In this document: positions 1 to 11,524 of the stretch, in pieces
How positions within the stretch are numbered: the first letter of the stretch is position 1
How the letters are laid out: each line of letters opens with the position of its first letter
Assembly (NCBI GenBank): GCA_018400515.1
Contig: JAGYMR010000068.1
Location: 1-11,524, forward strand
Direction of reading: 5' to 3'
From: Tangfeifania sp.
Lineage (GTDB): Bacteria > Bacteroidota > Bacteroidia > Bacteroidales > Prolixibacteraceae
Length of the DNA stretch: 11,524 nt
Position numbers and translations under genes: made by a program
The notes under the pieces: model-generated
Seen by the model: only the letters and a program-made list of their open reading frames with translations
The model's database searches: none
Told to the model about the DNA's origin: nothing

Positions 1-1
1 G

Positions 2-1561
2 ATCGTGAATGGGGTGTGGTATTACAGCGAACAAACCTGGTGGGGCTGGTCTGCTCACCTGACCATGCAAAAAGCCCCCCACGGACTGCCCGATGCGGAG
101 GAACCGGTCATTGATCTCGGCGTGGGGGAAATGACCAGCATTCTCTCGTGGACCTGGTTTTTGTTCAGGGATGCGTTTGATAACATTCATCCCCTTATTG
201 CGCGGCGACTGAAAGATGAGATCATGAGAAAAGCGGTGACCCCCTTTTTTGAAAGAGACGATTTCTGGTGGATGGGACTGGAGGATGCCCGGGGCATCAA
301 TAACTGGAATCCATGGACCAACCACAACATGCTGACGGCAGTCCTTCTTTTGGTCGATGATCCGGAAAGGAGAACTGAAGGGGTTCAGAAGGTGGTGCGT
401 TCCCTGGATGTTTTTCTGAATGTTTATCCGGAAGACGGGGGATGCGATGAGGGACCCTCCTACTGGGGCAGGGCAGGAGCATCGCTGTACCAGTGTCTTG
501 ACCTGCTGAAAAGAGCAACCGGCGGAAAATTTGATGTGTTTGACCATCCCCTCATTCAAAACATGGGAACTTATATTTACAAGGCATACATCGATTACCC
601 CTATTTTATCAATTTTGCAGATGCGGATGCCACTACCGGCAGCCGCCCCCAGATCATCTACTGCTATGGGAAAGCCATTGGTGATCCCACGATGAAAAAA
701 TTCGGCGCTTTCCTGGCTCAAAAACAGGGCTGGGGTGAAGAGCCGCCCGGGGGAAAGGTCGATGAGCAGATCATGCAGCTGATGCACCTGAAGGAGATAG
801 AAAATGCCCGGGCGGAAAATGCTTTGATCCCCGATTTTTGGCTGCCTGACATCGAGGTGGCCGGGGCCCGCGATCGGGAAGGGGTTCCCAAAGGTTTCTT
901 TTTTGCTGCCAAAGGGGGGCATAATGCAGAGAGTCATAATCATAACGATCTGGGAAACTGTGTGATGTATTTTAATGGGCGCCCCTGCCTCATCGACATC
1001 GGCCGGGAAACCTATACAGCAAAAACCTTTAGCAGCCGCCGCTATGAGATATGGACCATGCAGTCGCAGTACCACAACCTGCCCCGGATTAACGGGGTGG
1101 ATCAGATGCCCGGCGGCCGTTTCAGGGCCATCAATACCTCTTTTGAGGCCCGTTCGAAAAGCGCCGTGTTTTCAACCGACATTGCCTGTGCCTATCCGGA
1201 TGAGGCTGCCGTGAAGAAATGGGTACGGACCTATCGGCTTGACCGGGGCAAACGGTTCACAATCCGCGATGAATATGAACTGAAAAGCGTGAAAGATGCC
1301 CCGACCACCCTTAATTTTGTAACGTGCTGTAAAGTGGTTGAACGGAAAGACGGGGTTTTGCACCTGGAAGGGGATGGGTATAAGCTGGAAATGAAATACA
1401 ATTCCCAGGCACTCACCCCGCGGATCGAATATAAGGAGGTCACCGACCGGCAGCTCCGCCGCTACTGGCCCGGGGGCATTTACCGGATTATATTTGCATT
1501 CAGCAGCCCGGAGGAGAAAGGAGAAAGCGAGATTGTCATAACCGAAAAGAGAGTGCAATAA
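2..1561 (+). CDS. Heparinase II/III-family polysaccharide lyase, 5'-truncated
   Basis: The reading frame is open to the left edge, so the gene starts outside the window; the GTG at 5 is probably an internal Val codon. About 519 residues remain, whereas family members are usually 600-800 aa with a signal peptide. Residue numbers count from base 5. The first part, rich in Trp and Asn (including NNWNPWTNHN near residue 99), resembles the alpha/alpha-toroid domain. The segment ESHNHNDLG at residues 309-317, followed by a Gly-Arg-Pro and an Ile-Asp-Ile-Gly stretch, is the hallmark start of the heparinase II/III beta-sandwich domain. The family eliminates uronic-acid-containing glycans (heparinoid, alginate-like or related) in the periplasm or outside the cell. 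The exact substrate or PL family cannot be read here. No susC/susD or sulfatase gene follows, so any utilisation locus would lie upstream. Confidence 0.85.
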   Translation: MVNGVWYYSEQTWWGWSAHLTMQKAPHGLPDAEEPVIDLGVGEMTSILSWTWFLFRDAFDNIHPLIARRLKDEIMRKAVTPFFERDDFWWMGLEDARGINNWNPWTNHNMLTAVLLLVDDPERRTEGVQKVVRSLDVFLNVYPEDGGCDEGPSYWGRAGASLYQCLDLLKRATGGKFDVFDHPLIQNMGTYIYKAYIDYPYFINFADADATTGSRPQIIYCYGKAIGDPTMKKFGAFLAQKQGWGEEPPGGKVDEQIMQLMHLKEIENARAENALIPDFWLPDIEVAGARDREGVPKGFFFAAKGGHNAESHNHNDLGNCVMYFNGRPCLIDIGRETYTAKTFSSRRYEIWTMQSQYHNLPRINGVDQMPGGRFRAINTSFEARSKSAVFSTDIACAYPDEAAVKKWVRTYRLDRGKRFTIRDEYELKSVKDAPTTLNFVTCCKVVERKDGVLHLEGDGYKLEMKYNSQALTPRIEYKEVTDRQLRRYWPGGIYRIIFAFSSPEEKGESEIVITEKRVQ

Positions 1562-1599
1562 TTTTAGAAAAATCCCCGTCGCTCAAAATTTATTTAATT

Positions 1600-1649
1600 C
1601 CTTCCCCGAAAAAAATGACTTATCCGGGAAGGCTGGCCATCGCTTTTTT
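1600..1649 (+). terminator. Possible terminator hairpin after the lyase gene
   Basis: CCTTCCC at 1600-1606 pairs perfectly with GGGAAGG at 1626-1632 (7 bp, 19-nt loop). A run of six T lies at 1644-1649, but 11 nt separate stem and T-run, which is long for a classical intrinsic terminator. It sits 39 nt after the lyase stop codon, where a terminator would be expected. Weak call. Confidence 0.25.
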
Positions 1650-1743
1650 ATGTGCCGCGGGATATATATCCGGAAAAAGGGCAGCCGGCTGATGCCAAAA
1701 GCAGGCACAATTCGTGAAATTTCCGGGTTAACCTGGCCCGTTT

Positions 1744-1774
1744 TTTGATCCCTTGTATTTTTCAGTTAAATTTG
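1744..1774 (+). promoter_or_regulatory. Bacteroidota consensus promoter for the TPR gene
   Basis: TTTG at 1744-1747 is followed after exactly 19 nt by TAAATTTG at 1767-1774, a full match to the -33 TTTG / -7 TAnnTTTG consensus of the Bacteroidota primary sigma factor. Transcription would begin near 1780, giving a very short leader (about 10 nt) before the ATG at 1789. The T-run that supplies the -33 box directly follows a small CGGG/CCCG dyad. Confidence 0.7.
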
Positions 1775-1788
1775 GATAAGAAAATTGT

Positions 1789-4017
1789 ATGACGGAGAAA
1801 GAGATAAAAACGGCCTTTTCTGAAATTACCCGGGCGGTCGCAGCGCGTAAACTGAAGCCTGCTTTTGATCACCTGGAGCAGTTAATCAGGGAGAATAACC
1901 TCGGGATGTACCTCGATGAATACCGCAACCTGGAAGAGACCTACCATTATATGCTGAAATACACCGTGGAAGGGATCAGGGATCCGGAAAGGCAAAAAAT
2001 TTACCGGAAGTTGATCGTTTCCGTATTTGAGCTGGCAGACAACGTGAATGAAGCCTTGCGTTTCCGGTTTTCATCATCGGTAACCTATGAGATGAAACGG
2101 GGATTTTCCGAACGGTTCATTCAGAACTTTGACACATTTTCTGCCGAATTGGAAGATTGCTACCTTCAGGATGAAAAATCGTCACATGACCCTGAAAAAG
2201 GAGCAGTCGATCCCGGACAATTGGCAGCATCCCGCGATTACCAGAAAAAAATGTTCCGGCTTTTTTATCATTTATGGTTTTCGGATAAACTGGATGATGC
2301 TGCCTTTGAATTTCTGAAGGATTTTTTTTCGAATGCACTTCATTCCGCCGTATACAGGGCACTGGCCGTTTCCGGCCTTACCCTCAGTCTCCAGCGGTTT
2401 TTCGATAAAAGGAAATTTTCATTGCTTTTCGAAGCCTATAATGCCGAAAACGGGGAAGTGAACCAACGGGCCCTGGTCGGACTGCTGGTTAATCTATACA
2501 AGTACGACGCCCGGCTGCCTTTTTATGCCGGAATAACCGGGCGGCTGAAAATATTAAATGAAGACCCCTCCTTTAAAAAGAACCTGGAACAGATCATTGT
2601 CCAATTTATCCGGAGTAAAGAAACCGAAGAAATTCAGCGAAAGATCAGGGATGAGATCATTCCGGAAATGATCCGGATAAGCCCCAACCTGAAGGATAAA
2701 ATGAACCTCGACAGCCTGATGGAAGAGGGACTGGGGGAAGATAAAAATCCGGAGTGGGAGGAGATCTTTAAGGATTCGCCGGGATTAATGGATAAAATGG
2801 AGGAGTTTTCGGAATTGCAGATGGAGGGGGCCGACGTTTTTATGGGATCCTTTTCGATGCTGAAATCATTTCCCTTTTTCCACCAGGTAGTCAATTGGTT
2901 TATACCCTTTTTCCCGCGAAATCCCTCCATCGCAAATGCAGTCGACCTGTCCGACAATGCCAACCGGCGTTTTGTGGAAACAGTAGACAGCGCACCTGTG
3001 CTTTGTAACTCCGATAAATATTCCTTCTGTTTCAGCATCCAGAACCTTCCTTCGGAGAACAGGGAGTTTCTGGCACAGGGGATGAAGGCCGAAATGGATC
3101 AGCTGAATGAGATCGAAAATGAGGAGGCCCTGATCACCCGGGGAAGAAAAAATGAATTCATTTCAAATCAGTACATTCAGGACCTTTACCGGTTCTATAA
3201 ATTACATCCGGGGAAAGCCGATTTTGAAGACATCTTTCTCTGGCGGTTCGATTTTCATAATAAAATGGCCCTGGGGGACATTCTGAAAGAGGATCCGAAA
3301 GTATTGCGGAACATCGCCGAGTATTATTTTGCCAAAAACCATTTTGAAGAGGCGGCCGAGATCTACCTGTTTCTTCTGGAAGAACAGCAGAACGGGGAAC
3401 TTTACCAAAAGGTGGCTTTCTGTTTCCAGAAAACGGGCGATTTTGAAAAGGCCCTGGATGCCTACAAAAAAGCGGAACTCTACGAGCTGAACAGGCTCTG
3501 GAACCTTAAGAAGATTGCCCTGTGCTACCGGAACCTGAAACAACCCGCAAAGGCGCTTGAATATTACAAGGAGGCTGAAAAGCTGGATCCTGACAGTCTG
3601 AACAACCAGTTAAACATCGGGCATTGTTACCTGGAGCTGAATAAATTCGGGGAAGCCCTGAAATGCTTTTTTAAGGTGGAATACCTGGCTCCCGGCAATA
3701 AAAAGGTCTGGAGGCCCATTGGCTGGTGCTCTTTCCTTTCCGGTAAAAAAGCGCAGGCCGAGAAGTATTTCCTGAAGCTGATGGACGACGAACCCAATAA
3801 ACATGACTTTATGAACATGGGGCATGTGCAGTGGAGCCTGGGAAACAGGAAAAAAGCGCTGGAGTATTATAAGAGATCCATTTCGGAAACCGGCTTCTCC
3901 CAGGCAGAATTTCTGGAGATTTTTGACGAAGACCTTCCGCATTTGCTGAACCAGGGAGTTGACAGCGAAGATGTGCCCATTATGCTGGATCAGCTGCGGT
4001 ACTTTCTGGAGGAGTAA
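1789..4017 (+). CDS. Large cytoplasmic tetratricopeptide-repeat protein, function unknown
   Basis: This 742-aa protein has no signal peptide and no membrane segment, so it is probably cytoplasmic. The C-terminal third (about residues 507-705) contains roughly six degenerate TPR units, with recurring pattern such as GDFEKALDAYKKAE, PAKALEYYKEAEKLDPDS, NKFGEALKCFFKVEYLAPGN and GNRKKALEYYKRSI. The N-terminal 500 residues are mostly helical and highly charged, with no domain I recognise. They are interrupted near residues 383-425 by a less charged segment containing LCNSDKYSFCFSIQNLP, which may be a separate small fold. TPRs normally act as protein-binding scaffolds; no partner can be inferred from the neighbours. 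The start ATG sits directly behind a consensus promoter. The gene appears monocistronic or co-transcribed with the secreted protein downstream. Confidence 0.85.
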   Translation: MTEKEIKTAFSEITRAVAARKLKPAFDHLEQLIRENNLGMYLDEYRNLEETYHYMLKYTVEGIRDPERQKIYRKLIVSVFELADNVNEALRFRFSSSVTYEMKRGFSERFIQNFDTFSAELEDCYLQDEKSSHDPEKGAVDPGQLAASRDYQKKMFRLFYHLWFSDKLDDAAFEFLKDFFSNALHSAVYRALAVSGLTLSLQRFFDKRKFSLLFEAYNAENGEVNQRALVGLLVNLYKYDARLPFYAGITGRLKILNEDPSFKKNLEQIIVQFIRSKETEEIQRKIRDEIIPEMIRISPNLKDKMNLDSLMEEGLGEDKNPEWEEIFKDSPGLMDKMEEFSELQMEGADVFMGSFSMLKSFPFFHQVVNWFIPFFPRNPSIANAVDLSDNANRRFVETVDSAPVLCNSDKYSFCFSIQNLPSENREFLAQGMKAEMDQLNEIENEEALITRGRKNEFISNQYIQDLYRFYKLHPGKADFEDIFLWRFDFHNKMALGDILKEDPKVLRNIAEYYFAKNHFEEAAEIYLFLLEEQQNGELYQKVAFCFQKTGDFEKALDAYKKAELYELNRLWNLKKIALCYRNLKQPAKALEYYKEAEKLDPDSLNNQLNIGHCYLELNKFGEALKCFFKVEYLAPGNKKVWRPIGWCSFLSGKKAQAEKYFLKLMDDEPNKHDFMNMGHVQWSLGNRKKALEYYKRSISETGFSQAEFLEIFDEDLPHLLNQGVDSEDVPIMLDQLRYFLEE

Positions 4018-4095
4018 ACAGGCGGGCGATTCATTTATGATTTATAATTCTTTTGTTTGTAAAGCATGTTCGTTTCATTTAACGGAAATCAGGTG

Positions 4096-4971
4096 ATGCG
4101 CAAGGCAGTTTTCATTTTGCTTTTCATTCTCTTTTTTTGTTCCGCCAGGAGTCAGCTGGTGGAGGTGCAGGCCAACTATACCAGTGCAGGCGATGTCGAT
4201 TTTGTGGCTTACAACCATTCGACCGCTCCGCTGTTTCTGAAGGTCGATTTTGCGGATCTGCAAAACACCACGTTTAACGAGCCGCTGCCCTATGTGAAAC
4301 GGATCGAACCGGGGTTTAACCGGTTGTTTACGTTGCTGCGTGACATGGACGGCGGGGTTCCCCGCTTCCATTATCAAACCGCTTATTTCCGTTCGGATCC
4401 CCTGGGGATCGTTGATCTGGAGTTTCCCTACCTGATCCCCCTGGCGCCCGGAACCACTGCCCGTCTCTTCGATGTGAAAAGCATCCGGGGTTTCTGGGGT
4501 TCCGGGGAGCCTGAATCGTGGGTGGCTACCGGCTTCCGCGTGGAGCCCGGAGACCCGGTGTATGCCACCCGCAACGGGATGGTGGTGGAAATTGCCGGAC
4601 AGGCGCGCACAAGCGACCCCCAACATTGGTACCATACCTGGAATAACACCGTGACCCTCCTGCAACCCGACGGAACCCTCATCTGTTACCGGAATGTGGT
4701 GGACAAAAAAGGAACCCTGAAAGTGGGGGAAAAGGTTTTTGCGGGACAGGTGATCGGGGAAGTTGCTTCCAACGCAACCCGACTGATTCTCCTGGTTTAT
4801 CAAAACAGCATTGAAACGGACGAGCTCCGGTTTATTATCCCGCAGTTTGTTACGGGCGAAAATCAAACAGGCCTGCTCATCACCGCCCGTGACTACCCCG
4901 TCATCCATCCCGAAGCGGTCAGGGGAAAAGAGATGACCCGCCGGGAGCGGCGAAAAATCCTGAAAAAGTGA
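4096..4971 (+). CDS. Secreted LytM/M23-like protein with degenerate active site
   Basis: I prefer the ATG at 4096 because it gives a textbook signal peptide (MRKAVFILLFILFFCSARS, then Q). The in-frame ATG at 4066 would add 10 polar residues in front. Residue numbers are from 4096. The C-terminal half follows a LytM/M23 trace: ATGFRVEPGDPVYATRNGMV (144-163) matches the HxGxD-xxxxG-tPVyA-xxxG segment, VTLLQPDGTLICYRN (186-200) matches the central strands, and VGEKVFAGQVIGEV (210-223) matches the VkxGqxVkxGqxIG turn. The metal/catalytic positions appear replaced: first His by Ala144, Asp by Arg148, the YxH His by Asn200, and the HLH motif by RLI (229-231). It probably binds cell wall or regulates another hydrolase rather than cutting, as EnvC and NlpD do. 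The C-terminus is strongly basic. The first 125 residues are an uncharacterised beta-rich region. Confidence 0.65.
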   Translation: MRKAVFILLFILFFCSARSQLVEVQANYTSAGDVDFVAYNHSTAPLFLKVDFADLQNTTFNEPLPYVKRIEPGFNRLFTLLRDMDGGVPRFHYQTAYFRSDPLGIVDLEFPYLIPLAPGTTARLFDVKSIRGFWGSGEPESWVATGFRVEPGDPVYATRNGMVVEIAGQARTSDPQHWYHTWNNTVTLLQPDGTLICYRNVVDKKGTLKVGEKVFAGQVIGEVASNATRLILLVYQNSIETDELRFIIPQFVTGENQTGLLITARDYPVIHPEAVRGKEMTRRERRKILKK

Positions 4972-4992
4972 TTCCCCCGGGGCCCCCTTTTT
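4963..4992 (+). terminator. Possible terminator at the end of the LytM-like gene
   Basis: AAAAAG (4963-4968, inside the last codons) can pair with CTTTTT (4987-4992) around a very G/C-rich centre made of C5, G4 and C5 runs. An A-rich arm, G/C core and T-run is terminator-like and could work in both directions, but the core has too little loop to form one clean stem. It stands at the correct place, between this gene and the promoter of the next operon. Confidence 0.25.
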
Positions 4993-5079
4993 ACTGAATT
5001 TCATTTGCCGCCACTGTAATGGACGGATAGAAACAGGAGGAATAATCCGTTTCCTGTAACTTCCTTGTTTTGTAAAAAG

Positions 5080-5139
5080 ATGAAACGAGCCATAAGAAAA
5101 ATTTCACACACAGGGGAATGTTTTTTTGGCGAGTTTCAT
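5080..5139. promoter_or_regulatory. Long imperfect hairpin in the intergenic region before tetR
   Basis: ATGAAACGAGCC at 5080-5091 pairs with GGCGAGTTTCAT at 5128-5139 as a 7-bp and a 3-bp helix separated by a tandem GA/GA step, with a 36-nt loop. It lies upstream of the tetR promoter and would not be in the tetR transcript, so it is either a DNA element, the end of a transcript from upstream, or chance. The rest of 4972-5175 shows only a 6-bp dyad (ACGGAT 5023-5028 / ATCCGT 5045-5050) and no convincing ORF on either strand. Confidence 0.3.
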
Positions 5140-5175
5140 GTGTTACCATTAAAAAAACAATTATAAATACATAAA

Positions 5176-5217
5176 AAATATACGTTATTTGTTTTATTGT
5201 ATTAAAATCGTATATTT
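5176..5217. promoter_or_regulatory. Inverted repeat over the tetR promoter, candidate operator
   Basis: AAATATACG (5176-5184) and CGTATATTT (5209-5217) are perfect 9-bp inverted arms separated by 24 nt. The right arm covers the -7 box and the -33 box lies between the arms. Arm centres are 33 bp apart, about three helical turns, so two protein dimers or a looped complex could bind on one face. The position fits autoregulation by the TetR-type protein encoded just downstream; binding itself is inference. A/T-richness makes a chance repeat possible. Confidence 0.4.
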
Positions 5218-5218
5218 G
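5188..5218 (+). promoter_or_regulatory. Bacteroidota consensus promoter of the tetR-led operon
   Basis: TTTG at 5188-5191, a 19-nt spacer and TATATTTG at 5211-5218 match the Bacteroidota TTTG / TAnnTTTG promoter perfectly. The start site would be near 5224, giving a leader of about 15 nt before the ATG at 5239. No equally good promoter was found inside the downstream cluster, so this one could drive all six genes. Confidence 0.75.
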
Positions 5219-5238
5219 TACTATAAAAGTAATTTTAT

Positions 5239-5835
5239 ATGGCCGAACAGGAAGTGAATTCAAAATACACGGACATTGTTAAAACCGCCCGCGGACTTTT
5301 CTGGAAGCACGGGGTCAGCAGGGTAACTGTTGAAGAGATTTGCAGGGAGGCGAATGTCAGTAAGATGACCTTTTATCGTTTTTTCCCGAATAAGGTTGCC
5401 CTGGGGAAGAAGGTGATTGATGACATCATGGATGAAAATACCGGGAAGTTCCGTGAAATAATGAAGGAGGACGCCCCTTTTGAAGAAAAGATCAAAAGGC
5501 TCCTGAAGCTGAAGTTGGAAGGGACCAGGGAGATCAGTGCCGAACTGGTAAACGATATTTATAAGAACAAGCGGCTGGGGTTGCACCATCACTGGCAGCA
5601 GCGGGCAGAGGAGATTACGGCGGAAGCGCTGCGCAGTTTTAAGGAGGCCCAGGAAAAAGGAGCCATTCGGAAGGATCTGAAAATAGAGTTTCTTTTTTAT
5701 TTCAGCACCAACATTGCGGGGATGCTTACGGACAAAAAGTTGTTATCCATGTTTGACAGCGTACAGGATTTGATCATGGAGCTGGTTAATCTGATATTTT
5801 ACGGAATATTTCCACCGGGGGAGAAAGAGAGGTGA
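5239..5835 (+). CDS. TetR/AcrR-family transcriptional regulator
   Basis: This 198-aa protein has the usual TetR length. Residues 10-56 form the N-terminal DNA-binding domain, with the helix-turn-helix TVEEICREANVSKMTFYRFF at about 30-49 and the typical FPNK that follows. The remainder is a helical ligand-binding/dimerisation domain too divergent to predict a ligand; HHHW at 116-119 is a noticeable His/Trp cluster. It is the first gene of the cluster: its TGA ends at 5835 and the beta-barrel gene starts at 5840. It therefore probably represses its own operon and responds to a lipophilic molecule or envelope state, as TetR proteins beside transporters often do. The ligand role is inferred from position, not sequence. 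Confidence 0.9.
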   Translation: MAEQEVNSKYTDIVKTARGLFWKHGVSRVTVEEICREANVSKMTFYRFFPNKVALGKKVIDDIMDENTGKFREIMKEDAPFEEKIKRLLKLKLEGTREISAELVNDIYKNKRLGLHHHWQQRAEEITAEALRSFKEAQEKGAIRKDLKIEFLFYFSTNIAGMLTDKKLLSMFDSVQDLIMELVNLIFYGIFPPGEKER

Positions 5836-5839
5836 AAGG

Positions 5840-7009
5840 ATGCGAAAAACAGGAAAAATAATTGCAGCCTCCTTTTTGTTCCTCTTTTATATTGTAGAAA
5901 GGGGGATAGCACAGGACAGGGAGCCGGAAAAGGGAGCTGCTTTTTCTCTTCATGGGCAGTTGTCGGGGTGGGAGCATTTGAACACCAACAATGTTTATCC
6001 CCTCCTGAGCGGGGGGCGCTACATTCCCCGCTTGTATTTTGAAAAGCCGTTGAAAGGGCAGGGGCTGTTCGATATAGAGGCCTCGGCAAACCTGTATGGT
6101 CAAATGGGATGGGATCCCCCGGATCGTTTTTCATTTGACGGGAAGGTCAAGCCCTACAGGTTTTGGGTCCGCTATTCGACACGTCAGTTAGAAGTGAGGG
6201 CAGGCCTGCAGAAGATCAATTTCGGATCCGCCTCGCTTTTACGCCCGCTGATGTGGTTCGACCAGGTGGATCCGCGTGATCCCCTCCGGCTTACCGACGG
6301 AGTATGGGGGCTTTTGGGGAGGTATTACTTTTTGAACAATGCCAATGTGTGGTTATGGGCGCTGATGGGCAATGAAGATCCCAAAGGATGGGAAACCATT
6401 CCTTCCAACAGAAGGATCCCGGGCTTTGGCGGCCGTTTGCAGCTACCGGTCCCCGCAGGGGAAGCGGCATTGTCTTTTCACCGGCGCCGGGCCGATGGCC
6501 GGAGAATTCCCGGTTTCGGAAATTCATTTTCTGAAATCCCGGAAAACAGGATCGGATTTGATATGAAACTGGACATAATTGCCGGGGCATGGGTCGAAGG
6601 GGTTTGGGTTAAGAAGGAGCAGGATGCAGGACTGCTTACCAATCAGGCGTTCCTCAATGCGGGCGCCGATTACACCTTTCATGTGGGGAACGGCCTCCTC
6701 GTGGTTTTTGAGCAGCTGTTGGCCGCCTACGACCGGCAGCCTTTTGAATTGGAGCGTACACTTTCCTTTTCATTGCTCAATATCTCTTATCCCATCGGGG
6801 TGTTCGATCAGCTGAGCCTGATCTCCTATTATGACTGGACCAATGATAAGGCTTATAATTTTCTGAACTGGCGGAAGCAATACAATAAAATAAGTTTGTA
6901 TTTTATGGGGTATATTAATCCCCGGGAGTACCAGATTCCCCTGCAGGGGGCCGGCGGGAATATTTTTGCCGGAAGTGGCCTGCAGGTGATGATCGTTTTT
7001 AATCATTAA
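5840..7009 (+). CDS. Predicted outer-membrane beta-barrel, DUF1302/alginate-export-like
   Basis: The 389-aa product begins with a signal peptide (hydrophobic core about 8-18, cleavage near GIAQ at 22-25). The mature part has alternating hydrophobic strands with many Trp, Tyr and Gly, ending LQVMIVFNH, as expected of an outer-membrane barrel. The segment VRAGLQKINFGSASLLRPL (119-137), then FDQVDPRDPLRL and a GLLGRYYF strand, resembles the conserved 'G-x-Q-x-I-x-W-G ... P-x-D ... DP-x-DP' block of DUF1302-type and related porin-like proteins; the match is recalled, not searched. RRIPGFG occurs twice (191-197 and 221-227). GAAAGG just before the ATG (5834-5839) overlaps the tetR stop region, suggesting translational coupling. 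In context it is a candidate outer-membrane receiver or pore for the Lol-like machinery downstream. It could alternatively be an unrelated porin. Confidence 0.65.
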   Translation: MRKTGKIIAASFLFLFYIVERGIAQDREPEKGAAFSLHGQLSGWEHLNTNNVYPLLSGGRYIPRLYFEKPLKGQGLFDIEASANLYGQMGWDPPDRFSFDGKVKPYRFWVRYSTRQLEVRAGLQKINFGSASLLRPLMWFDQVDPRDPLRLTDGVWGLLGRYYFLNNANVWLWALMGNEDPKGWETIPSNRRIPGFGGRLQLPVPAGEAALSFHRRRADGRRIPGFGNSFSEIPENRIGFDMKLDIIAGAWVEGVWVKKEQDAGLLTNQAFLNAGADYTFHVGNGLLVVFEQLLAAYDRQPFELERTLSFSLLNISYPIGVFDQLSLISYYDWTNDKAYNFLNWRKQYNKISLYFMGYINPREYQIPLQGAGGNIFAGSGLQVMIVFNH

Positions 7010-7055
7010 CGGCGGATGCGCATTGAATAAAAATTTTTCTAATCATATATAAACG

Positions 7056-7748
7056 ATGGAAAACGGAGCGATTATTTTAACAGAAAAACTGACCAAGTCC
7101 TTTCCAAACGGGAAAACGCTTTTTATGGCCCTGGAGGGCATTGATCTCCGGATCGGACAGGGAGAGTTTGCCGGGCTGATCGGCCCCAGCGGATCGGGAA
7201 AAACAACCCTGCTGAACATCGTGGGATCTCTGGATGTGCCCTCAGCAGGGGAAGCAGTCACCCTGGGATATCCGGTTAGTAAGCTTACCCCAAAAGAAGC
7301 TGCCCGGCTGCGGAAAACAAACCTGGGATTTATTTTTCAAACCTATAACCTGCTGGCGGTCCATACGGTGTATGAGAATGTCGAATTTCCCTTGTTGCTA
7401 TTAAAGATCCCTGCTGAAAAACGCCGGAAGATGGTCATGGATGCACTGGAGTGGGTCGGGTTGACCGAAAAAGTGAAATCCAGGCCTCCGCAATTGTCGG
7501 GAGGTGAATGTCAGCGGGTGGCCATTGCACGGGCCATGGTGAAAAAACCGTCGCTTGTGCTGGCTGATGAACCTACCGCCAACCTCGATGCCGAAAACTC
7601 GCACCATATCCTGAAAACAATGGCGCACCTCAATGAGGAACTGAAAACCACTTTTCTGTTTGCCACCCATGATGAAAAAGTAATCGGGTACCTCCGCCGG
7701 AAGATATTTTTGCTGGATGGCCGGATTGACAAAGATGAAACGGTTTAA
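7056..7748 (+). CDS. LolD-like ABC transporter ATP-binding protein
   Basis: All ABC ATPase motifs are intact in 230 aa: Walker A GPSGSGKT (43-50), Q-loop Gln95 in GFIFQTYNLL, signature LSGGECQR (147-154), Walker B LVLADE (167-172) with D-loop ANLD, and switch His205 in ATHDE. 'FQTYNLL' and 'LADEPTANLD' are typical of the LolD/MacB/FtsE subgroup, which powers mechanotransmission permeases rather than channel-type transport. The length is close to E. coli LolD (233 aa). Cys152 in the signature, where Gln is common, is a small deviation. No Shine-Dalgarno is evident; the A/T-rich leader is normal for Bacteroidota. It should pair with the two FtsX-type permeases directly downstream. Confidence 0.93.
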   Translation: MENGAIILTEKLTKSFPNGKTLFMALEGIDLRIGQGEFAGLIGPSGSGKTTLLNIVGSLDVPSAGEAVTLGYPVSKLTPKEAARLRKTNLGFIFQTYNLLAVHTVYENVEFPLLLLKIPAEKRRKMVMDALEWVGLTEKVKSRPPQLSGGECQRVAIARAMVKKPSLVLADEPTANLDAENSHHILKTMAHLNEELKTTFLFATHDEKVIGYLRRKIFLLDGRIDKDETV

Positions 7749-7785
7749 TAATGGATGCTGTTCTGAAAATTTTAATCTTTAACAA

Positions 7786-8961
7786 ATGAAACTGGCAATA
7801 AAACTGGCCTGGCGCAATTTGACCGGAGCGGGACTCCGGACCTGGCTCAATGTGATCGTGCTCTCCTTTTCATTTGTTGTCATTATCTGGATGAAAGGAA
7901 TCATGATCGGATGGGATCATCAGGCAAAAAACGACATGCAGGAGTGGGAGATCGGGAACGGGCAATACTGGCAAAACAACTACGATCCCTATGATCCCTT
8001 CTCCCTGACCGACAGCCATGCACCCATACCGGAGGAATTGAGTGAAGCCGTTGAAAAGGGCGTGGTAGTTCCGGTGTTAATTGTCCAGGGGACCATTTAT
8101 CCCTCCGGCAGGATGCAATCGGTCCGGATCAAGGGGATTCCGCCGGATCAATCGGTGCTGGCCCTGCCTACCCGGAAACTGGATACATTGGTGGCTGCAG
8201 TGCCTGCCATTGTCGGTACTTCCATGGCCCGGGCAAACGATTTGGAGCGGGGAGATTACCTGACTCTGCAGTGGCGGGATATTAACGGCACTTTCGATGC
8301 AGCTGAGGTGGTCATTGCCGGCATTTTTGCCACCAATGTTCCCTCGGTCGACGGAGGCCAGCTCTGGATCCCCCTGGAGCAGCTGCAGGAGATGATGCTT
8401 TTGCCCGGGGAGGCGACCGTTTTGACACTGGGCAGGGAAAATGCGGAATGGCCGGTATTGCAGCAGTGGAAACGCCAAACCGTCAAAGACCTCACGGCTG
8501 AAGTGGATGAACTGATAAAAACCAAAACCATCGGGCAGTCGGTTTTTTATGTCATCCTGCTGCTGCTGGCCATGCTGGCCATTTTCGATACACAGGTGCT
8601 GTCGATCTTCCGGCGTCAAAAGGAGATTGGAACCTATGTGGCACTTGGGTATACCCGCCCCGAAGTGGTAGGGCTTTTTACGGTGGAGGGTGCCATGCAT
8701 GCCGTTTTTGCGGCCATCCTTTCTGCTGTTTACGGCATTCCGTTTCTTTTCTGGCAGGCCCGTACGGGCTGGACATTGCCCGTGGAAGCCAGTGACTTTG
8801 GCATGGCCATGGCTCAAACTCTGTATCCCACCTATACCGCCGGTTTGGTGGTTTCAACTGTTCTGATCGTCTTAATTACTACCACGGTGGTCAGTTACTG
8901 GCCCTCCCGTAAGATTGCCAAAATGAATCCAACCGAAGCATTAAAGGGAAAAATTCAATGA
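7786..8961 (+). CDS. LolC/LolE-like FtsX-family ABC permease, first subunit
   Basis: This 391-aa protein has the classical type-VII topology: TM1 at about 21-41, a periplasmic MacB-PCD-like domain (about 45-245), then TM2 (251-274), TM3 (298-324) and TM4 (350-371). RRQKEIGTYVALGYT (276-290) is the cytoplasmic coupling-helix signature after TM2. The tail PSRKIAKMNPTEALKGK matches the conserved family C-terminus. The length is close to E. coli LolC/LolE, and no ATPase is fused, unlike MacB. It would form a heterodimer with the next gene product and extract substrate from the outer leaflet of the inner membrane. Whether it carries a LolC-type 'hook' for the periplasmic carrier needs a structure model. 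Its stop overlaps the next start. Confidence 0.88.
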   Translation: MKLAIKLAWRNLTGAGLRTWLNVIVLSFSFVVIIWMKGIMIGWDHQAKNDMQEWEIGNGQYWQNNYDPYDPFSLTDSHAPIPEELSEAVEKGVVVPVLIVQGTIYPSGRMQSVRIKGIPPDQSVLALPTRKLDTLVAAVPAIVGTSMARANDLERGDYLTLQWRDINGTFDAAEVVIAGIFATNVPSVDGGQLWIPLEQLQEMMLLPGEATVLTLGRENAEWPVLQQWKRQTVKDLTAEVDELIKTKTIGQSVFYVILLLLAMLAIFDTQVLSIFRRQKEIGTYVALGYTRPEVVGLFTVEGAMHAVFAAILSAVYGIPFLFWQARTGWTLPVEASDFGMAMAQTLYPTYTAGLVVSTVLIVLITTTVVSYWPSRKIAKMNPTEALKGKIQ

Positions 8962-10232
8962 TACGTTTTTTATTAAAAGGACTTCTGCGTGACAGCAGCC
9001 GGAGCAAACTGCCGGTGATGGTGGTCGCCAGCGGCGTGATGCTGTCGGTTTTGATGCATGCCTATGTTACCGGGATCATGGGCGACACCATTGAAATGAA
9101 TGCCCGGTTCTCCACCGGCCATGTGAAAGTGATGACACGGGTCTATGCGAATAATGTCAACCAACTACCGAATGACCTTGCCTTGCTGGATGCCCGTGAA
9201 TGGATCCAAAAACTCGAAAATGACTTCCCGCACATGCACTGGTCCGCCCGCATTAAGTTCGGCGGATTGGTGGATGTCCCCGACCATCAGGGGGAAACCC
9301 GTGCACAGGGACCTGCTGTGGGAATGGGGCTGGAATTATTGCAGCCGGATAGCAGGGAGGCTGAGAGGCTTAACCTGGCAGGCTCACTGGTAAGGGGAGC
9401 CATGCCGTCGGAGCCGGGAGATGCACTTATCAGTGAGGAGTTCTCCCGGAAACTCAACGTCAGCCCCGGCGATATGGTCACATTTATCAGTTCGGCCATG
9501 AACGGGAGTATGAGCATGTACAACTACCGGGTGGCAGGAACCGTCCGTTTTGGTTCGACCATGCTTGACCGCGGATCCCTGATCGCCGATATGGAGGATG
9601 TCCGGAAAGCCCTGGATATGCAGGATGCCACGGGCGAAATCACCGGCTTTTTCAATACAGGTTATTACAACCAGGAACAGGCTGAAAAAGTGGTTGAACG
9701 CTTCAATGCCGAGTACACCAACCCGCAAAATGAATTTTCCCCTTTGATGGTTTCCCTGCGGGACCAGGACAATATGGCGTTTTATGTTGATTTTTCGAAA
9801 AGCATGTCGCTGATTGTAACCCTTATCTTTATGCTGGCCATGTCGCTGGTCCTGTGGAATGCAGGCCTTCTCGGGGGATTGCGCCGTTATGGGGAGATCG
9901 GCCTGCGGCTGGCCATCGGGGAAGAGAAAGATCATGTTTATCTTTCCATGCTTGCAGAGGCTGTTATGATCGGGATCATTGGCTCCGTTGCCGGCACCAT
10001 GCTTGGTCTGTTTTTTGCCTGGCTGATTCAGAGATACGGCATTGATATCAGCTCCATGATGAAAGGAGCCTCGGTGATGATGCCTGCCAAAATAAGGGCA
10101 CACATCACACCGGTGGATTTTTATATCGGGTTTTTTCCGGGACTTGTATCTACTTTTATTGGAACGGCCCTTTCGGGCATTGGTATCTACAAACGAAAAA
10201 CGGCCCGGCTTTTCAAGGAACTGGATGTGTAG
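8958..10232 (+). CDS. LolC/LolE-like FtsX-family ABC permease, second subunit
   Basis: The ATG at 8958 overlaps the previous TGA in an ATGA junction, so the two permeases are probably made in step as a heterodimer. The 424-aa protein has TM1 at about 18-40, a periplasmic domain (about 45-275), TM2 (281-303), TM3 (334-357) and TM4 (388-411). GLRRYGEIGLRLAIGEEK (307-324) is the coupling-helix signature. Its periplasmic domain differs from that of the first subunit, containing GDALISEEFSRKLNVSPGD (154-172), a typical MacB-PCD/FtsX pattern. The C-terminus (YKRKTARLFKELDV) lacks the usual Pro-x-x-x-Ala...Pro-x-EAL motif, which the first subunit keeps, showing specialisation of the pair. Confidence 0.88.
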   Translation: MIRFLLKGLLRDSSRSKLPVMVVASGVMLSVLMHAYVTGIMGDTIEMNARFSTGHVKVMTRVYANNVNQLPNDLALLDAREWIQKLENDFPHMHWSARIKFGGLVDVPDHQGETRAQGPAVGMGLELLQPDSREAERLNLAGSLVRGAMPSEPGDALISEEFSRKLNVSPGDMVTFISSAMNGSMSMYNYRVAGTVRFGSTMLDRGSLIADMEDVRKALDMQDATGEITGFFNTGYYNQEQAEKVVERFNAEYTNPQNEFSPLMVSLRDQDNMAFYVDFSKSMSLIVTLIFMLAMSLVLWNAGLLGGLRRYGEIGLRLAIGEEKDHVYLSMLAEAVMIGIIGSVAGTMLGLFFAWLIQRYGIDISSMMKGASVMMPAKIRAHITPVDFYIGFFPGLVSTFIGTALSGIGIYKRKTARLFKELDV

Positions 10233-10302
10233 CTGATTCGGAGGTTGCTCCTTCCCCCGGCGGTTCCGGTTGCTGCCTGCAGCGGGCAAATATGGAAAAA
10301 AG

Positions 10303-10315
10303 AGATGTGACATCT
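10303..10315. promoter_or_regulatory. Short palindrome before the LolA-like gene
   Basis: AGATGT, a central G, and ACATCT form a perfect 6-bp-arm dyad ending 17 nt before the ATG at 10333. It lies in the 100-nt gap that is the largest inside the cluster. It could be a protein-binding site or a small RNA hairpin, but such dyads also occur by chance. No consensus promoter was found in the gap. Confidence 0.2.
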
Positions 10316-10332
10316 GATAATAAAAGATCGAT

Positions 10333-11070
10333 ATGAAGGAATTATTGTTAATGAGTTTATTTTTATTGGTTACAGGATGGGCAGGCGGTCAGCCGGATGC
10401 CGGTGAAATTCTGGAGCGGGTGGACCAAAACATGTCCTCTGAAAACAGGATTTTTGAATCCTCCATGACCATTCATGGCAAACGATCCAGCCGGACGCTC
10501 ACCTCCGTTACCTATTCCGTCGGAGATAAAAAATCATTTACGGAATATTTGTCTCCCCCCCGCGAAGAGGGAACTAAGATGCTGAAACTGGAGGATCAGC
10601 TATGGATCTATTCCCCGTCAACCGACCGCACCATTCAGATTTCCGGGCATATGTTGCGGCAATCCGTTATGGGGTCCGACCTTTCCTATGAAGATATGAT
10701 GGATGACCGGAAGCTTTCAGAGGTCTACAATGCTTCGGTGACCGGCAGCGATACCCTCGATAACCGGCCCGTCTGGGTCCTCCGGCTGACTGCCAGGGTG
10801 GAGGATGTGGCCTATGCCTCCCGGAAGGTTTGGATTGATAAAGGACGCTTTGTTCCTTTAAAGGAGGAACTTTTCGCGAAAAGCGGGAGGTTGTTAAAAC
10901 GGGCAGATATGCAGGATGTCAAAAAAATTCAGGGACGGTGGTTCCCAACCACCATCATTTACAAGGACATGCTTAAGCAGGGGGATGGCACCGAATTCAA
11001 AACCACCCGCGTACAATTTAATCAGGAAATTCCCGACTATATATTTACAAAAGCAGCATTAAAACGTTAA
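10333..11070 (+). CDS. Periplasmic LolA-like 'outer membrane lipoprotein-sorting protein'
   Basis: The 245-aa product starts with a signal peptide (core LLLMSLFLLVTGWAG, cleavage near residue 18). There is no lipobox Cys, so the mature protein should be soluble in the periplasm. The block LWIYSPSTDRTIQISG (90-105) followed by LRQSVMGSDLSYEDM (108-122) is characteristic of the LolA_like / TP0789-type family. These proteins have a half-barrel LolA/LolB fold with a hydrophobic cavity for acyl chains. VWIDKGRFVPLKEELF (166-181) is the strand pair typical of the fold. E. coli LolA matures to about 180 aa; this type is longer. Family members often sit beside FtsX-type ABC or RND exporters, as here. 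It is the likely carrier between the permeases and the outer membrane; the cargo is unknown. Confidence 0.85.
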   Translation: MKELLLMSLFLLVTGWAGGQPDAGEILERVDQNMSSENRIFESSMTIHGKRSSRTLTSVTYSVGDKKSFTEYLSPPREEGTKMLKLEDQLWIYSPSTDRTIQISGHMLRQSVMGSDLSYEDMMDDRKLSEVYNASVTGSDTLDNRPVWVLRLTARVEDVAYASRKVWIDKGRFVPLKEELFAKSGRLLKRADMQDVKKIQGRWFPTTIIYKDMLKQGDGTEFKTTRVQFNQEIPDYIFTKAALKR

Positions 11071-11081
11071 CGTTCTGCGGA

Positions 11082-11106
11082 GGCGATTTTTCCGGGTAAA
11101 ACCGCC
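11082..11106 (+). other. Hairpin just after the LolA-like gene
   Basis: GGCGATTTT (11082-11090) pairs with AAAACCGCC (11098-11106) with one A-C mismatch and a 7-nt loop. It begins 12 nt after the stop codon. There is no T-run behind it, so it may protect the mRNA 3' end rather than terminate. Confidence 0.4.
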
Positions 11107-11233
11107 TTCCTATCAGGCAGGAGGACAACCGTCCGTTGAAACGTTCAGCCCGTTCCGCATTACGGATCCGGGGAACCGCGGGAAAACAGTCTCCTGCATT
11201 ATTCCGGTCCCTGCTTCCGGAAATGGCTTTGAT

Positions 11234-11256
11234 CCTTTCCGGGAAAGGTTTTTTTT
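11234..11256 (+). terminator. Probable intrinsic terminator of the transport operon
   Basis: CCTTTCC-G-GGAAAGG (11234-11248) is a perfect dyad, folding as a 5-bp stem with a 5-nt loop in RNA, and is followed at once by eight T (11249-11256). A longer alternative stem uses the upstream CCGGAAA at about 11218. It lies 164 nt after the LolA-like stop and no gene intervenes. Confidence 0.5.
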
Positions 11257-11378
11257 GCGGGCAGCCGGAATCAGGCGCCGGGAGATGAAATAATGATCCT
11301 TTTTTTCAGGGGTTCCGGAACCGCAGCGGGCCCCTTCAGGGGGAATTTGCAAAAAAACACCCCTTCTTTTAATGGAGT

Positions 11379-11392
11379 AAAAAGTACTTTTT
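11379..11392. repeat. 14-bp perfect palindrome
   Basis: AAAAAGTACTTTTT is a perfect self-complementary sequence immediately upstream of a promoter-like TATATTAG (11395-11402, one mismatch to TAnnTTTG). It may be an operator, but the -33 box is poor and the A/T-rich context raises the chance expectation. Confidence 0.25.
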
Positions 11393-11439
11393 TGTATATT
11401 AGAAAAAAATTGAATCAACGGTGGAACGATGAAACGAGC

Positions 11440-11456
11440 ATGTAAAGTATTTACAT
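11440..11456. promoter_or_regulatory. Operator-like dyad near the right edge
   Basis: ATGTAAA and TTTACAT are perfect 7-bp arms around GTA. The size and spacing fit a site for a dimeric helix-turn-helix regulator. It is about 40 nt downstream of the promoter-like TATATTAG, so it could lie in the leader of a gene beyond the window. Confidence 0.3.
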
Positions 11457-11524
11457 CCAAGGTGATGGTTTAAATGCATGTGAGTTCCATACGATACCTT
11501 AGAAAACAGATAATTTTTATAATA

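Follow-up and report, generated by a model that had tools for sequence, protein, structure and literature searches.

A TetR-led six-gene cassette of Bacteroidota with a LolA-like carrier and a barrel, probably for hydrophobic small molecules or lipids

Which cargo is served by a Lol-like gene set that brings its own outer-membrane barrel and its own regulator? The question is raised by an 11,524-nt stretch of DNA from Tangfeifania sp. (contig JAGYMR010000068.1, positions 1 to 11,524; the whole stretch is referred to as the window), in which an operon at 5239..11070 encodes a TetR-family regulator, a predicted outer-membrane barrel, an ATPase, two FtsX-type permeases and a LolA-like periplasmic carrier. 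Few systems are known for the passage of greasy molecules across the periplasm. A first-pass annotation of the sequence had proposed a dedicated trans-envelope route for a lipid, a lipoprotein or a hydrophobic molecule, paralogous to the housekeeping Lol pathway, with the barrel in place of LolB. The analysis described here supports a dedicated trans-envelope system and speaks against its being a lipoprotein Lol paralogue. Our best reading is that the six-gene set is of a kind already known but poorly studied, and that, judging by its closest relatives, its cargo is a hydrophobic small molecule or a lipid.

Composition and conservation of the six-gene cassette

The six open reading frames (ORFs) all lie on the + strand, at 5239-5835, 5840-7009, 7056-7748, 7786-8961, 8958-10232 and 10333-11070, with intergenic gaps of 4, 46, 37, -4 and 100 nt, exactly as first annotated. 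The leading gene encodes the TetR-family regulator P0001 (198 aa; Pfam TetR_N, 50 bits, 2.2e-13), and the second the β-barrel P0002 (389 aa). P0003 (230 aa; ABC_tran, PF00005, 108 bits, 9.2e-31) is a LolD/MacB-type ATPase in which Walker A, the LSGGE signature and Walker B were all located by eye, and its best NCBIfam model is LolD (222 bits, below the cut-off of 308). Permease A (P0004, 391 aa) and permease B (P0005, 424 aa) both contain the FtsX C-terminal domain (PF02687; 49 bits, 6.2e-13 and 59 bits, 8.3e-16, respectively), which, together with the LolD/MacB-type ATPase, places the set among the type VII (MacB/FtsX) ATP-binding cassette (ABC) systems. The carrier P0006 (245 aa) is a member of the LolA_like family PF17131, with 206.6 bits against a cut-off of 30 (3.3e-61) over model positions 1-184 of 184; its PDB relatives are 3buu, 9tp6, 3bk5 and 4z48. 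By eye, a signal peptide lacking a lipobox cysteine was recognized in both the carrier and the barrel. No adaptor (HlyD/MacA) or TolC gene was found among the nine window proteins scanned, and either may lie elsewhere in the genome; within this scope, the annotated combination of a carrier with neither adaptor nor TolC holds.

Relatives of the locus were collected with permease B as the seed in one scan of genome contigs, which gave 242 confirmed relatives; the analysis used the best 80 of these, and retention was counted for each gene in loci with enough flank. The LolA-like gene is kept in 71/71 loci, permease A in 72/72, the ATPase in 58/59 (exception L018), the barrel in 46/48 (exceptions L023 and L066) and TetR in 37/42 (exceptions L010, L023, L036, L057 and L066). 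Permease B is accompanied by all five other genes in 32 of the 37 loci having full flanks. The outcome that the first-pass annotation had named as damaging to its proposal, namely that most relatives lack the barrel or the LolA-like gene, was thus not observed. Gene order is constant across loci, barring occasional extra ORFs (e.g. in L015, L054, L056 and L071) or split ones (the barrel in L016, permease A in L067). The conserved co-occurrence of the families was also seen when 296 Bacteroidota genomes were searched with a profile for each protein in turn: the barrel and permease B occur in an identical 11, the starting genome included. Among 119 genomes of the order Bacteroidales (starting genome included), permease B was found in 17 and the barrel in 18, with 16 common to both, and 15/18 barrels share a contig with permease B at a distance of 1.9-4.7 kb. 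The barrel match of genome G317 begins at contig base 2, so assembly breaks may account for some of the three unshared genomes. The six genes are a conserved cassette, beyond chance.

Permease B matched 6444 proteins at E ≤0.001 among 7999 scored candidates, many of which are perhaps general FtsX proteins; among the 120 matches listed, the organism-named ones are all from Bacteroidota (e.g. Tangfeifania, Mariniphaga, Gaoshiqia, Prolixibacteraceae and Saprospiraceae). Beyond the cassette itself, no family of neighbours occurs in more than 12/81 loci (neighbours of at least 120 aa; many loci end at a contig edge), so no cargo-making gene was seen travelling with the cassette, and the attempt to read the cargo from gene neighbours failed. 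A mobile origin of the cassette was considered and rejected: a phage search with permease B gave no match, and a plasmid search with the barrel matched only two Persicobacter records. One Persicobacter plasmid (1.07 Mb; order Cytophagales) carries a complete six-gene set (L112:3405-9023). In a genome that is deltaproteobacterial by title (L007), barrel and permease are both present, on two contigs; just one other match, a weak one (86 bits), was found among 247 genomes of its phylum, and the occurrence may reflect either transfer or mis-binning. One in-frame stop each was seen in a permease B gene (G334:C2:60959-62236) and a barrel gene (G418:C12:23986-25110), through decay or sequencing error.

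Relationship of the permeases to the housekeeping Lol system

In its strongest form, the first-pass proposal is a second Lol pathway that serves some of the lipoproteins and delivers them to the barrel, their outer-membrane acceptor. Such a pathway would fit an ATPase nearest the LolD model, a carrier from the LolA-like family and the family profile of permease A, for which LolF is the best PDB match (E 1.6e-8). The profile of permease B, however, is nearest MacB (E 2.5e-7). Against the NCBIfam lolCE model the two permeases score 52 and 32 bits with a cut-off of 362, which is a weak test, as the better lolCE-like copies of the hosts fall short too (205-248 bits). Housekeeping Lol genes were looked for in 8 of the 80 host genomes. 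Separate, much stronger lolCE-like permeases are present in 8/8 (best 205-248 bits each) and a separate PF03548 LolA in 7/8, in agreement with the annotated paralogy to a housekeeping system. In a permease tree of 32 rows, with one housekeeping copy per host, long branches and neither LolC nor MacB reference rows, a branch of length 3.3 with 100/100 support splits the LolCE-like copies of the 8 hosts from all LolA_like-associated permeases, of which permease A forms one group and permease B another. At the level of sequence, the cassette permeases are distinct from the LolCE-like proteins of their hosts.

LolC has a Hook for LolA docking (P167-P179; PMC8277102). Both P0004 and P0005 carry a 5-residue gap inside the segment aligned to it, and this segment is shorter in 12/12 system permeases checked than in 8/8 housekeeping copies, a comparison of aligned residues that takes the housekeeping segment to be a working Hook. 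The carrier may dock elsewhere. Together, the separation of the permeases from the LolCE-like proteins and the shortened Hook segment speak against a lipoprotein Lol paralogue. In addition, LolB is reported in Bacteroidota (PMC11885536; PMC13103446), so the earlier statement that it is generally not found there is outdated, and there is no need for a barrel in its place. A second Lol pathway for lipoproteins is, in our judgement, unlikely.

Architecture of the outer-membrane barrel

P0002 (5840..7009) matched nothing in Pfam at E values of 0.1 or below, and hence does not reach the cut-off of DUF1302 (PF06980). An AlphaFold model built with 46 relatives has a pLDDT of 85.3 and a pTM of 0.78 (a single-sequence model reached a pLDDT of only 30.6) and comprises 18 strands by our own count, which supports what had been a guess in the first-pass annotation. 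It starts with an N-terminal helix, read as the signal peptide, and contains an inserted segment (residues 125-154) that is strongly conserved. In a structure search with this model, the best matches were OprD/Occ uptake channels, AlgE and porins; Omp85 and FadL are not among the matches listed. The model supports a porin/OprD/AlgE-type channel fold, which would suit an exit portal better than a lipoprotein acceptor.

A remote relationship to DUF1302 was analyzed with HHalign, using an alignment of 46 barrels of 345-430 aa taken from 57 barrel ORF matches (A2; the alignments A3, A1 and A4 hold 23, 20 and 21 picked rows, respectively). The barrel family matched DUF1302 at 94% (E 1.3e-7, 142 columns), against 5.8% for Porin_O_P, 0.6% for Wzi and less than 1% for reversed controls. 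These profile comparisons are suggestive of a possible remote DUF1302 relative, with support that falls once signal peptides are removed (see Discussion). Channel-type fold and possible DUF1302 kinship both look more portal-like than the LolB-replacing acceptor proposed earlier.

The same parts in other gene sets

PF17131 exceeds its cut-off in 75/119 Bacteroidales genomes. When 30 loci out of 126 strong LolA_like matches were drawn, 6 had the layout of the window, in 2 an FtsX gene came after LolA_like, and the majority of the remaining 22 had an ORF with multiple transmembrane segments on one side of LolA_like and an ORF of ∼410 aa on the other. The neighbours tested were MMPL in 2/2 cases for the former and DUF1302 in 3/3 cases for the latter (410-430 aa); the fuller stretches (L147, L149, L153 and L154) have TetR in front as well. 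Conversely, of the 39 DUF1302 matches in the 119 genomes, 35 of which exceed the cut-off, 37 have a strong LolA_like match no more than 6 kb away, and the two without one (G385:C184 and G354:C67) are both below the cut-off. The DUF1302-LolA_like pairs sit next to MMPL pumps or to an ABC set of a second type. In Mariniphaga sediminis (L146:2530-8455), the other ABC layout runs TetR, LolA_like, FtsX, FtsX, LolD, a protein judged CAP-domain-like by eye, and a barrel resembling DUF1302, and both ABC layouts are present in this genome. Two Vibrio records combine an ATPase, one permease, a LolA-like protein and a barrel-like protein; a similar W/F-G segment was recognized by eye in both barrels. In Vibrio sp. 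HDW18 (L115:4868-10653), genes for a histidine kinase and a LytTR regulator come after the 414-aa barrel-like protein, and the run has no TetR.

These gene sets could represent a modular "shuttle and portal" class of exporters, in which a periplasmic/outer-membrane half made of LolA_like and a DUF1302-type barrel is combined with swappable inner-membrane engines (an FtsX pair driven by ATP or an MMPL/RND pump driven by protons). The class would be distinct from TolC tunnels and Lpt bridges and would have arisen by assembly more than once, across Bacteroidota, spirochaetes and Proteobacteria. We put this forward tentatively, as possible rather than probable.

Comparison with known systems

The Borrelia BBJ23-29 cluster, proposed to export a non-polar ligand, resembles the window in grouping a type VII ABC transporter with a LolA-like carrier and a barrel of the outer membrane; it differs in its single permease (a homodimer is proposed), in the Omp85 type of its barrel, in the presence of TPR proteins and, as described, in the absence of TetR (PMC13078400). 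The permease of Borreliella valaisiana lp28-8 matches permease B (tblastn E 4e-7), and in the tree the Borreliella valaisiana and Vibrio permeases group with permease B at 87/80, on long branches that may make the grouping false. A Borrelia BBJ-type carrier was not found with the LolA-like profile. On lp28-8 (L113:4830-12398), the BBJ-type transporter cluster lies directly upstream of SagB/ThcOx and YcaO genes.

AmeABCD of Castellaniella defragrans likewise combines a DUF1302 outer-membrane protein, a LolA-superfamily periplasmic protein and an inner-membrane pump; the pump is of the RND/HAE3 type, the carrier belongs to DUF1329 instead of PF17131, AmeC is additional and the outer-membrane protein has 605 aa (PMC6394551). 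Its deletion is reported to lower monoterpene tolerance and to raise Nile Red build-up (PMC6394551). TetR and LolA_like (PF17131) are also shared with TetR-MMPL-LolA_like-hypothetical operons of Bacteroidales (PG1178-1181 and relatives; PMC10434189), which have an MMPL pump instead of an ATPase and two permeases; the DUF1302 identity was tested in three MMPL-type Bacteroidales loci, PG1178 not among them. In iron-starved P. gingivalis, the PG1175-81 genes, including TetR, MMPL and LolA_like, are reported to rise 13- to 136-fold, and hemin limitation raises MMPL-type genes likewise (PMC10434189, PMC10470040).

With LolCDE-LolA-LolB, the window system has in common a LolD-like ATPase, two FtsX permeases and a LolA-type carrier, but it has separate permease clades, the shortened Hook segment and a barrel and TetR of its own, and its hosts keep separate LolCE-like and mostly separate LolA genes. 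MacAB-TolC is also a type VII ABC system, to whose MacB the permease B profile is nearest; in contrast to it, the window has no adaptor or TolC among its proteins, and its ATPase is not fused. BT2792-2795, a lead from bile tolerance, was rejected, since BT2794 is given as HlyD family. No description of the six-gene Bacteroidota set was found in the literature covered, which mostly did not extend to subscription papers.

Transcription unit and genomic surroundings

Promoters of Bacteroidota follow the consensus TTTG / TAnnTTTG, and such a candidate (TTTG, 19 nt, TATATTTG, of the form TAnnTTTG) lies at 5188..5218 on the + strand, 20 nt before the tetR start. The pattern TTG-N17-22-TAnnTTTG is present in 18/41 regions upstream of tetR (window included), compared with a mean of 0.7 and a maximum of 4 in 200 shuffles, and the stricter TTTG form in 7/41, compared with a shuffle mean of 0.2. 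A palindromic AT-rich motif upstream of tetR in the relatives reached a log-likelihood of 98, compared with 35-40 in three shuffled sets. As these loci are mutually related, the promoter and motif statistics overstate independence. A candidate TetR operator, recognized by eye, is the 9-bp inverted repeat AAATATACG / CGTATATTT (5176-5184 and 5209-5217, no strand assigned), whose two arms lie on either side of the -33 element, the right one overlapping the -7 element. Such a repeat is weak on its own, as 33/300 shuffles contain at least one and 6/300 no fewer than the two that the region itself has, and an automated repeat search of the region did not report the 5176-5184/5209-5217 pair.

A terminator-like hairpin (CCTTTCCGGGAAAGG, then a T-run) at 11234..11258 on the + strand, a consensus match in a scanned stretch with 20 such sites against 8.5 expected, plausibly closes the transcription unit. 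With the promoter at 5188-5218 and the hairpin at 11234, the 5.2-11.3 kb region is plausibly a single transcription unit.

The window further contains a Heparinase II/III-like protein (PF07940; 2-1561, truncated by the window start), a 742-aa TPR protein (1789-4017) upstream of the operon and an M23-family peptidase-like protein (4066-4971) immediately upstream of it. The TPR gene is a tempting member beside the TPR proteins of Borrelia and was rejected, relatives of it being present in 0 of 80 other loci.

Discussion

As a fold, LolA accommodates hydrophobic cargo. The reading that we favour, with a confidence little better than even, is that the six genes make up a self-contained shuttle-and-portal exporter under TetR control, which moves a hydrophobic small molecule or a lipid and is comparable to AmeABCD and to the role proposed for Borrelia BBJ23-29, and that they are not a lipoprotein paralogue of Lol. 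According to it, the two permeases and a pair of ATPase subunits would form a type VII (mechanotransmission) ABC machine, which would pull the cargo out of the inner membrane and pass it to the soluble LolA-like carrier. The carrier would traverse the periplasm and dock on the 18-stranded barrel, and the cargo would then move through the barrel or along its wall, into the outer membrane or out of the cell. TetR would keep the operon off until bound by the cargo. Cargo class, direction, complex formation and regulation by cargo are what we infer here. Type VII ABC pairs are described as acting by mechanotransmission (PMC12646458; PMC8277102), and for another of them, YbbAP, extraction of hydrophobic molecules is proposed (PMC12646458). 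The suggested cargo class draws on the carrier family, on AmeABCD, on the Borrelia proposal and on Thalassolituus, in which an MMPL/LolA-like protein and a neighbouring porin are reported to be raised on long-chain alkane (PMC6304351).

Several observations weigh against this exporter. The barrel fold fits uptake channels (OprD, LamB) as much as an exporter (AlgE). The similarity to DUF1302 spans at most residues 1-169 and drops from 94% to 74% (E 2.8e-5, 62 columns; controls <1%) without signal peptides, and in a smaller set of 17 barrels it falls from 70% to 2% once these are removed. In HHalign, the barrel family reached only 22% with one type-3 barrel and gave no match with the two Vibrio barrels. 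Finally, the experimental data on an analogue come from AmeABCD, whose pump is of the RND type and whose carrier belongs to a different LolA-fold family (DUF1329).

The same mechanism could instead protect the cell by efflux, with toxic amphiphiles or the compounds of competitors as substrates and TetR as the sensor. A leading TetR gene is common in efflux operons, and TetR leads the set in 37/42 loci. This would also accord with the lack of a recurrent biosynthesis gene nearby and with the increase in monoterpene tolerance by AmeABCD (PMC6394551). However, sequence cannot separate efflux defence from export of a hydrophobic cargo, and in P. gingivalis and P. intermedia it is iron/hemin shortage to which the MMPL-type sets respond, a hint at envelope or metal physiology and not at toxins (PMC10434189, PMC10470040); we regard defence as rather improbable. 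An importer, in which the barrel takes in a hydrophobic nutrient and the carrier conveys it to the inner membrane, would suit the OprD/Occ channels as best structural matches of the barrel, but characterized type VII ABC systems extract, export or signal (PMC8277102; PMC12646458) and no recurrent catabolic gene was seen nearby, which makes it very improbable.

As a compact regulated accessory set with every part together, the cassette makes cargo, carrier and exit testable as one. If the exporter reading is true, the LolA_like/DUF1302 pair would gain a common role with swappable pumps, and caution would be needed in taking the database name of PF17131, "outer membrane lipoprotein-sorting protein", as a tested function.

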